From Aquifex aeolicus (GTDB lineage: Bacteria > Aquificota > Aquificia > Aquificales > Aquificaceae), in the NCBI GenBank assembly GCA_015661465.1, contig DQVZ01000249.1, forward strand, positions 1 through 14,732: a DNA stretch of 14,732 bases, in the 5' to 3' direction. This document shows positions 12,661 through 14,732 of the stretch, piece by piece (within the stretch, counting starts at the first letter, position 1; every line of letters starts with the position of its first letter). A program made the position numbers and the translations under genes. Under the pieces are notes generated by a model, which was not told the origin of the DNA, searched no databases, and saw only the letters and a list, made by a program, of their open reading frames with translations.

Positions 12661-12682
12661 AGTTGAGGAACTTGAAAAATAA
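12635..12682 (+). pseudogene. Remnant of a second ferredoxin gene (3' end only)
   Basis: Read in one frame, 12635-12682 gives DEYLGCSIIVEELEK and a stop. It lines up without gaps with the ferredoxin end DECPSGSIIVEEE encoded at 12552-12593. At DNA level 28 of 36 bases match between 12552-12587 and 12635-12670, including 16 identical bases in a row (GTTCTATAATAGTTGA). The ligand cysteine and following proline are lost (C-P became Y-L). Upstream of 12635 no ferredoxin-like coding is left; the DNA is a pyrimidine-rich tract. The best explanation is a decayed tandem duplicate. Chance similarity cannot be fully excluded because the region is short. Confidence 0.55.
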
Positions 12683-13427
12683 AATCATTTTTCTAGGAAC
12701 TGCTGGAGGTAGGATAGTAACCTTTAATCTTATAAAGCGTTCTGGAGGTTTTTTAGTAGAGGATAGTGGACATTACCTCCACGTAGACCCGGGTCCGGGA
12801 GCATTTGTATACTTACACCACCTGGGAATTGATTATAAGAAAATAGACCTAGTAGTTCTTTCCCATCTGCACTTAGACCACTCTGCGGATGTGAATACTA
12901 TTCTTGAATCCGCTACAAACGGAGGAAAGTATAGGAATATATCCCTTTTTGCCCCTAAATCCGCAGTAATAGGAGAAGATAGGGTCGTTCTACCTTACCT
13001 GAGGAAACGCCTTATAAAGGAGGAATTCTTTTCAGAGGGTTCTACGCATACTTACAAATCCTGGAAAGTTAAAGCGGTAATAAAACACAGACATCATAAA
13101 GCAGAGACTTACGGCCTGTTTATAAACGATAAAATTGTCTACGTATCCTGTGCAGGATTCGAAGAAAGGATGCTGGAACTTTACCCTAAGAATGCAAAGC
13201 TGATGATTATAAACACTACATTCTATAGAAAAAGACCCGGTGTAGAACATTTATCAGTAGAAGATGCTGAATTACTCATAAAAGAGCTCACACCCAAGAG
13301 AGCAGTAATTACCCATTATTCTATGGAAATGCTGGAAAAAGGGATAGAGAGAGTAGCCGATGAACTCTCAGATAAAACCTCCGTTGAGGTTATACCTGCT
13401 AAAGACAATTTAATTCTGGAAGTTTAA
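12663..13427 (+). CDS. Metallo-beta-lactamase-fold hydrolase
   Basis: The protein of up to 254 residues has the MBL fold: IIFLGTAGGRI strand-turn at the N-terminus, HVDPGPGAF, the metal motif HLHLDHS (H68, H70, D72, H73), a histidine cluster KHRHHK (H142-H145) and a final ITHYS (H218). The N-terminal LGTAGG and HxHxDH with a late T-H-Y-S recall the RNase Z/phosphodiesterase branch rather than beta-lactamases, but the RNase Z exosite is not evident. The metal-bridging aspartate expected in a YSGDT-like strand is missing; the corresponding strand reads YVSCAGF (C163). Starts are TTG 12663 or TTG 12672 (251 residues); the family-like sequence begins right after the second and the mapped promoter favours it. 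No ATG or GTG is available. The substrate is unknown. The next gene starts 9 bases after its stop. Confidence 0.82.
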   Translation: MRNLKNKIIFLGTAGGRIVTFNLIKRSGGFLVEDSGHYLHVDPGPGAFVYLHHLGIDYKKIDLVVLSHLHLDHSADVNTILESATNGGKYRNISLFAPKSAVIGEDRVVLPYLRKRLIKEEFFSEGSTHTYKSWKVKAVIKHRHHKAETYGLFINDKIVYVSCAGFEERMLELYPKNAKLMIINTTFYRKRPGVEHLSVEDAELLIKELTPKRAVITHYSMEMLEKGIERVADELSDKTSVEVIPAKDNLILEV

Positions 13428-13436
13428 AATAGAAAA

Positions 13437-13817
13437 ATGCCTGTAATTTTTAATAAAAAAAGAGAGATAGAAGGCATTCCGGGGAATTACCCTTTCACTG
13501 CGGAAAATCTATTCAGAGTTGGTCTAGCACTCTGTACCCTTTGGGTTATAGATAAAGAAGTTGAAAAACCCGTTTTATCTATTGAAGAAGCTAATTTCGT
13601 CACCTTATCGTTAGCGGTCGGTTTCATGAATGGGGGAGGTGATGTGGTATTGAAAGAAAAGGGGGACATAGAACTTACACTGCTAAAAGGAGATACTTGG
13701 AAGGTTAAAATTTCTCCTTTCACCGATACAGATTTGAAGAAAATCGAAAGCATGCTTTTCGGAAGGTATCCAATCCCCAAAAGAACAGGTGAAGACATAG
13801 GTATGTTTAGGTGTTAA
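13437..13817 (+). CDS. Small protein resembling phosphohexomutase domain I, without catalytic serine
   Basis: This 126-residue protein has no obvious assignment at first sight, but its conserved points follow those of domain I of alpha-D-phosphohexomutases (PMM/PGM, GlmM): [20 protein letters not shown] matches the GIRG..P-x-T-x-E....G opening, [10 protein letters not shown] matches the G-x-x-x-G-A-D-V-V strand, and [12 protein letters not shown] matches the domain end ...EIGRV. Where the active-site loop TASHNP with its phosphoserine is expected, the protein reads TLLKGD (about residues 80-85), so the serine is replaced by leucine. Domains II-IV are absent; real enzymes have about 450 residues. 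It therefore looks like a catalytically dead, single-domain relative or a relic still open as a frame. ATG 13437 is 9 bases after the MBL stop; no Shine-Dalgarno, but TAAAAT at 13425-13430. Function unknown. Confidence 0.6.
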
Positions 13818-13835: not shown

Positions 13836-14069
13836 ATGCGAGGCTTTATATTCGCCTGCACCAACAAAAGCGAAAAAGAGTGTTTAGATAATTTGATATT
13901 TGCTACGAATAAAGCTTACGGTCATAGAATCTTTGGCATAAATAAAGGAGATTATATTTTTCTTTATAACTTGGACACAGATGCACTTTATGGGACCTTT
14001 GAAGCGGAAAAAAGCCTCTATGATAAAAGTACTGAATTATTTGGAGGTAAATATCCCCTACTTAGTTAA
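13836..14069 (+). CDS. DCD-like domain protein, frame ends at a probable frameshift
   Basis: The 77-residue frame resembles the DCD (Development and Cell Death) domain best known from plant proteins: an opening G-x-IF-x-C-x-N-x-S-x-x-ECL block (residues 3-17), then LIFAT where plants have LFGLP, then KGDYIFLYNLDTDALYGTFE matching G-x-x-LFLYN..T..LHG-x-FE. The domain should end with a (F/Y)PAQVRV-like strand. Here the frame reads KYPLLS and stops at 14067-14069, whereas the next frame continues KYP with YLVKVKP if one base of the CCCC run at 14055-14058 is skipped. The domain therefore seems to continue into the methyltransferase frame. The domain's biochemical role is not established; PUA/EVE-type small domains offer a comparison as nucleic-acid readers. 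ATG 13836 has no ribosome site. Resemblance is by eye only. Confidence 0.6.
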   Translation: MRGFIFACTNKSEKECLDNLIFATNKAYGHRIFGINKGDYIFLYNLDTDALYGTFEAEKSLYDKSTELFGGKYPLLS

Positions 14070-14732
14070 AGTAAAACCGAAATCAAAGGTTAAAAAGTTA
14101 GAAAGAGCATCAAAGATTTTTAAACTGATGGGGATTAATTGGCGTGATATTTTAACCGATTATGGAGCTAAACTTTTATCTGAAGTGATAGAGGGTAATC
14201 TGAAAGTTCTAAAGAAGATTAATAAAGAAAGGGTTATAGACAAATTCTATAGACCACCTTTATTTTCAACTACCCTTTGGGATTTTCCCAAGCAAAGCTA
14301 TGGAGATACTCCAAAAGGTAATAATAGATATCCAGGTGTTACCCCTGCATTTATAATTTACAATCTCATCCATAGGTATACCGAACCCGGAGACTTAGTT
14401 TTGGACCCTATGGCTGGAAGCGGAACAACAATAGATGTTTGTAAAGAGGAAGGAAGAAAAGTAATAGCTTTTGATATAGTACCTACCCGTAAAGATATAA
14501 TACAAGCTGATGCAAGGAGTATGCCGATAAAAAGTGAAAGTGTAGACTTTATATTCATAGACTCCCCTTATTCCGATAATATCAGGTATAATGACCATCC
14601 AAAAAATATAGGACATATTCCAGCAACCGATGAAAGTTTTTTCGATGAGTTAGAAAAAGTTATGAAGGAAGCGTATAGAGTTTTGAAACAAGGTAAATAC
14701 TTAGCTTGGCTAATAGGAGACCAGTGGGCAAA
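14020..14732 (+). CDS. DNA methyltransferase (N6-adenine/N4-cytosine type), 5' end uncertain, 3' end beyond the window
   Basis: From 14059 to the window end one frame stays open. It contains an SAM-binding motif I, LVLDPMAGSGTT, preceded by a motif X-like YPGVTPAFIIYNLIHRY, then a motif II-like VIAFDI, and a catalytic motif IV-like FIDSPYSDNIRY (DSPY in place of D/N/S-P-P-Y). EAYRVLKQGKYLAWLIGD follows as in family motifs VI-VIII. This is the layout of amino-methylating DNA methyltransferases; base and site cannot be told. The recognition part may lie after the window. An ATG at 14020-14022 in this frame allows a separate start with a 50-base overlap of the DCD-like frame, but the homology of the first residues (YLVKVKP) suggests the natural N-terminus is the DCD-like domain, joined by a +1 shift at 14055-14058. 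No restriction endonuclease gene is visible. Confidence 0.8.
   Translation, partial: MIKVLNYLEVNIPYLVKVKPKSKVKKLERASKIFKLMGINWRDILTDYGAKLLSEVIEGNLKVLKKINKERVIDKFYRPPLFSTTLWDFPKQSYGDTPKGNNRYPGVTPAFIIYNLIHRYTEPGDLVLDPMAGSGTTIDVCKEEGRKVIAFDIVPTRKDIIQADARSMPIKSESVDFIFIDSPYSDNIRYNDHPKNIGHIPATDESFFDELEKVMKEAYRVLKQGKYLAWLIGDQWA

Follow-up and report, generated by a model that had tools for sequence, protein, structure and literature searches.

The window analysed here is the whole of contig DQVZ01000249.1 (C236) of the Aquifex aeolicus assembly GCA_015661465.1, a stretch of 14,732 nucleotides (nt) from a genome assembled in 307 contigs with a completeness of 82%. At its right end lies a type II restriction-modification (R-M) methyltransferase gene, the two parts of which occupy different reading frames and the second of which is truncated by the contig end. 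This is probably the 5' part of a system of the kind in which a methyltransferase with an N-terminal DCD domain is accompanied by a BsaWI-type endonuclease, inserted here between a gene for a protein of 126 amino acids (aa) and a 5'-3' exonuclease gene, and the DCD would serve in it as an accessory reader.

The N-terminal part had been assigned to the DCD domain in an earlier note made from the sequence alone, and a profile search agrees: PF10539 matches 13836-14066 at 43.7 bits (E 2.9e-11; curated cut-off 27.8 bits), with residues 3-59 aligned to profile positions 2-58 of 126. The overlapping frame 13981-14730 matches PF01555 (N6_N4_Mtase) at 83.7 bits (E 2.4e-23) and includes DPMAGSGTT (14404-14430) and DSPY (14560-14571), named motif I and motif IV, respectively, in the earlier note. 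Together, the PF01555 match and the two motifs point to a DNA amino-methyltransferase. Its C-terminal part is missing, as the contig runs out near position 297 of the relative model, which has 375 positions.

A profile of 60 relatives searched against PDB sequences gave 12 matches at E <= 0.01, of which 10 were named DNA methyltransferases and 2 were described merely as 'Methyltransferase'. In NCBIfam, no family was found for the DCD piece, and methyltransferase models scored far below their cut-offs for both the window and the relative L003. The PADLOC matches listed (25 of 71 for the window and 25 of 58 for L003) were mostly generic type II methyltransferase models and included nothing for the DCD or the endonuclease.

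The combination of the two domains, which the earlier note did not know to be characterised in Aquificales, is already in the literature. Such fusions were reported in 2020 by Bell, Wolf and Koonin (PMC7641849), and the window adds a further, broken example. The paper places the DCD in the PUA-like superfamily, names hyperthermophilic bacteria and archaea as its main hosts, and describes frequent fusions to methyltransferases, with a PD-(D/E)XK nuclease gene usually downstream; recognition of modified DNA was suggested. The relatives described below share with those fusions the domain order, the nuclease neighbour and the occurrence in archaea and hyperthermophilic bacteria, whereas the window copy differs in its two frames and in the contig end inside the methyltransferase. 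The main text of the paper mentions neither BsaWI nor Aquificota, and no paper uniting BsaWI, DCD and methyltransferase was found in a search of an open-licence library. Within the literature searched, the link of the nuclease to BsaWI and the comparison with DCD-less enzymes appear to be new.

The frame-split gene and its single-frame relatives

A stop at 14069 closes the DCD frame, and the methyltransferase sequence lies in the next one; no single open reading frame (ORF) spans both (Table 1). The earlier note had the DCD lead straight into an amino-methyltransferase. Both parts are indeed present, and they are fused in relatives, but in the window the second lies in the next frame. The window DCD is not complete in one frame, its 77 residues covering only the PF10539 positions given above. 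The frame change interrupts the DCD/EVE-like fold, which in the model of a relative would extend to about residue 119. It is the only break in the ~900 nt of the gene, and conservation is otherwise kept in both frames.

Table 1. Features at the right end of the window.
Feature	Position	Strand	Basis
126-aa gene, left neighbour of the DCD ORF	13437..13817	+	Pfam: none at E <= 1
DCD ORF of 77 aa, with the initial ~75 residues of a DCD/EVE-like domain; stop just past the frame change	13836..14069	+	PF10539 profile
Switch zone, where similarity to intact relatives moves from the DCD frame into the next frame	14050..14062	+	The two window pieces, separately aligned, and 4 intact relatives
Second-frame stretch with the last strand and the closing helices that complete the DCD/EVE-like fold, and with the linker; ATG in this frame at 14128	14062..14262	+	
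Amino-methyltransferase core, interrupted by the contig end	14269..14730	+	PF01555, 83.7 bits

Relatives were collected by a pattern-based scan of the genomes of 84,980 species, which gave 116 relatives, the best 80 of which were examined, and from a viral contig collection, which gave one. These 81 were compared using our own profiles for the DCD, the linker and the core (loci and genomes are given under our L and G numbers). DCD, linker and core occur together in 60 of the 81 relatives, and 20 have the core without a DCD; L079, the N-terminus of which is lost at a contig start, was excluded from the DCD counts. Among 65 DCD-bearing loci, including the window and four whole-genome loci, DCD and core lie in one ORF in 64. 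The window is the sole exception, and the intact fusion that the earlier note proposed to look for in related genomes was thus found in every other case. Neither outcome that the note named as refuting, a profile search with no DCD/PUA-type match or homologues in which the parts are always separate genes, was observed. As judged by record titles, the DCD-bearing set extends beyond hyperthermophiles.

In the DCD-less enzymes, the first possible start lies 4-77 residues ahead of the core (20 loci). The viral relative is a contig (L087) that encodes a DCD-less core at 107-934 and, where the contig begins on the left, the final part of a BsaWI-type endonuclease. Phage records gave 7 partial matches and plasmid records 18, none reaching 80% query coverage, and hence there is no sign of phage or plasmid carriage in those records.

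The BsaWI-type endonuclease partner

A BsaWI-type endonuclease (PF18643) is encoded within 1.5 kb of 41 of the 60 DCD-bearing methyltransferases, as would suit the defence system envisaged in the earlier note, and within the same distance of 19 of the 20 DCD-less ones. In five of the DCD-bearing loci without the endonuclease, a flank is cut short.

BsaWI is a named member of this family and recognises W/CCGGW. In its description (PMC4652773), R169-D170-R171 is the CCGG-reading motif, D145 and K165 lie in the putative active site, and K85 reads the outer base pair. Alignment of 53 endonucleases of the relatives revealed a PD motif with P in 53/53 and D in 50/53, a K in 53/53, and an R-E-R triad in which the three positions are kept in 51, 52 and 53 sequences, respectively. 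Like BsaWI and the CCGG-family R-M enzymes, the endonucleases of the relatives match PF18643 and appear to retain both the R-(D/E)R triad and the residues of the active site, the residue correspondence being taken from one weak alignment of L003 with BsaWI (E 0.64) and the Pfam match. It is reasonable to predict that their recognition sites have a CCGG core.

At eight loci (L008, L025, L036, L043, L057, L061, L063 and L074), the endonuclease next to the methyltransferase is split in two ORFs, which may reflect error or decay.

Probable insertion, loss and the frame change

Among 136 genomes of the phylum, a DCD match above the cut-off was found in 9, the genome of the window included. Six of the other eight (G016, G023, G033, G048, G075 and G079) encode a full-length DCD-methyltransferase in one ORF, and in all six a BsaWI-type endonuclease adjoins the fusion on the same contig; in the three loci inspected directly it is the next gene after the fusion (99-113 bits). 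PF18643 was matched in 22 of the 136 genomes, and hence more genomes have the endonuclease than have the DCD fusion. In two other Aquificota genomes (L093 and L097), a BsaWI-type endonuclease lies beside a different amino-methyltransferase, which has the whole of PF01555 and no DCD.

G103 and G108 include the DCD within a different protein of 265-281 aa. This second DCD architecture is seen in two genomes of the order (L088 165-959, minus strand; L089 1429-2271, plus strand), where the DCD scores 69-70 bits. The C-terminal part of the L088 and L089 proteins matched no Pfam family at E <= 0.001; by eye, it may resemble a restriction-type nuclease.

The R-M system is most likely an insertion between the 126-aa gene and the 5'-3' exonuclease gene (PF02739), because two genomes of the same genus, G006 and G001, have the 126-aa gene followed directly by the exonuclease gene with the system absent, and because G002 has, beside this exonuclease gene at a contig end, the last 118 residues of an endonuclease that shares 69% identity with the L003 enzyme. 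The 126-aa gene of G006 is 95% identical to that of the window; no match to it was found in G002 and G003, of the same genus. The G+C content of the system is 34.7% versus 39.2% for the rest of the window. Further to the left, 12681-13424 encodes a metallo-beta-lactamase-fold protein (PF12706, 66 bits), to which ribonuclease Z models are weakly similar, below their cut-offs.

Loss of such a system is seen in G085, where a remnant (L132 1495-1677, minus strand; L146) consists of the first 37 DCD residues in an open frame of 61 aa, followed by another gene. The remnant occupies the position of the full system in the sister genome G033, and this indicates that such systems are lost by deletion.

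The frame change in the window may well be a sequencing or assembly error, with the gene intact in the organism, and we would give this close to an even chance. The break is a single one in otherwise conserved frames, the other 64 DCD-bearing loci are each in one ORF, and the source assembly is fragmented; set against this, the other large ORFs of the contig have no obvious break, judged by length, and the G085 remnant is evidence that these systems decay. It is plausible too, at somewhat below even, that the change is real and that the gene was recently silenced or shortened by mutation, with no more than a DCD-less enzyme still made from a later start. The in-frame ATG precedes the core, naturally DCD-less enzymes start within the distance from the core given above, and G085 has been left with a DCD fragment where its sister has the full system, but no clear ribosome-binding site is seen upstream of 14128 (20 nt inspected by eye). 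The frame change would separate the start of the DCD from the enzyme. Barring a sequencing error or recoding, such as programmed frameshifting, at most a DCD-less methyltransferase would be made, an architecture that is natural elsewhere.

Target recognition and the role of the DCD

The DCD of a relative, as modelled, is closest to the EVE and YTH readers of modified bases, with 7-19% sequence identity, and has the PUA-like fold of the EVE-YTH type. The description of the DCD as reader-like in the earlier note is thus supported as far as the fold of this model goes. DCD positions 41, 54, 69 and 73 are aromatic in 47/47 rows, which may hint at modified-base binding. When the profile of the 47 DCD sequences was searched against PDB sequences, a collagenase (E 0.068) ranked just above the EVE protein MJECL36 (E 0.08), and therefore the link to EVE is not shown from sequence alone. 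The DCD differs from the EVE (PH1033, MJECL36, VcaM4I) and YTH readers in that it is fused to a writer, whereas VcaM4I is fused to a nuclease. With the plant DCD proteins (PMC1182354), which function in stress and cell death, it has PF10539 in common, but the hosts and the fused partners differ.

Given the modelled fold and the comparison with DCD-less enzymes, the DCD is most likely an accessory reader of modified bases. The methyltransferase core would protect a site with a CCGG core, and the DCD, as a reader of EVE/YTH type, would not select this site but would add a second contact, most likely to an already modified base. Candidates for that base are the methylated parental strand after replication and modified foreign DNA.

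In the reading of Bell et al., the DCD recognises modified DNA, foreign or host, and brings the methyltransferase for extra methylation, so that the system restricts modified DNA. The EVE/YTH-like fold of the modelled DCD and the genomic-context argument of the authors (PMC7641849) favour this; we nevertheless find it doubtful, though worth keeping in view, as the nuclease is of the BsaWI type and is also paired with DCD-less enzymes, a pattern that resembles an ordinary type II R-M system with an added reader.

It is improbable that the methyltransferase owes its sequence specificity to the DCD as a target-recognition domain. This role would suit the N-terminal position of the DCD ahead of the core and the term 'specificity module' used by Bell et al. 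(PMC7641849). The core of L003 is also permuted relative to 2zie, with L003 232-297 corresponding to 2zie 36-100 and L003 153-231 to 2zie 202-282, which would leave space for an N-terminal recognition domain. However, 20 sister cores have no DCD. The endonucleases of two DCD-less loci, L082 and L078, share up to 83% identity with that of the DCD-bearing L033 across 203 residues, and for the 16 endonucleases from DCD-less loci the best DCD-associated match is 39%-83% identical. Endonucleases as similar as the closest pairs very probably share their cleavage site, in which case that site must be protected by methyltransferases with and without the DCD, and the DCD is not needed for this. As 19 of the 20 DCD-less sisters lie near the same endonuclease family, the DCD is probably not a target-recognition domain.

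On the core tree without L079, the DCD-less rows need 3 changes. The test does not reject a single DCD-less clade (p-AU 0.72, from quick trees that omit L079, L058 and L086), and repeated loss of the DCD, which was considered, is thus unsupported. On the endonuclease tree, a quick tree with a long-branch warning, the DCD label has to change 6 times, and starred branches make at least 2 of these changes obligatory; hence partners may have been exchanged, or the DCD gained or lost. Duplicate records in two collections (L002/L013 and L090/L012) were counted once in the tree.

Several observations weigh against the DCD as an added reader in a BsaWI-type R-M system. In Foldseek, the structures nearest to the whole model are tRNA methyltransferases (Trm11). 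In the weak alignment (E 0.64), the L003 endonuclease has a proline, with a neighbouring lysine, opposite BsaWI K85, and therefore its flanking specificity may differ. No endonuclease was found in the genome of the window, which is 82% complete and in which the contig ends inside the methyltransferase. Fourteen of the 60 DCD-bearing loci are without a BsaWI-type endonuclease despite at least 900 nt on each side, and the DCD is therefore not tied to restriction. In two further genomes of the same genus, the 126-aa gene is not seen beside the exonuclease gene: G004 has other neighbours there, and in G005 the region is interrupted by a contig end. The presence and absence of the DCD fit a single change on the core tree, and hence the enzymes without it may form a single sister clade and not reflect repeated losses.

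Nine of the 14 loci without an endonuclease belong to Nitrososphaera-like archaea (L018, L019, L020, L028, L031, L035, L039, L040 and L075), the DCD-methyltransferases of which are possibly solitary methyltransferases.

A substrate of RNA, not DNA, is very improbable: in structure, the whole model is matched best by archaeal Trm11 and by further methyltransferases, a number of which act on tRNA, and domains of the EVE/YTH type bind RNA too, but most of the PDB profile matches are named DNA methyltransferases and the usual neighbour is a restriction-endonuclease gene.

For the DCD as an accessory reader, the two kinds of methyltransferase provide a natural comparison, since one endonuclease family pairs with enzymes that have the DCD and enzymes that lack it, and this separates a DCD that picks the target from a DCD that is an added reader. 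A more specific and rather unlikely version is that the DCD reads the mark of its own enzyme, holding the methylated parental strand at hemimethylated sites of CCGG type while the fused methyltransferase restores the daughter strand. If true, a type II R-M system would here include a bacterial maintenance methyltransferase that is both reader and writer, with DCD-less sisters as natural controls, and the DCD, that of plants included, would gain a testable ligand. The comparison of the two kinds of methyltransferase also opens the ligand of this domain, which plant cell-death proteins share, to tests on small proteins, some of them derived from thermophiles.
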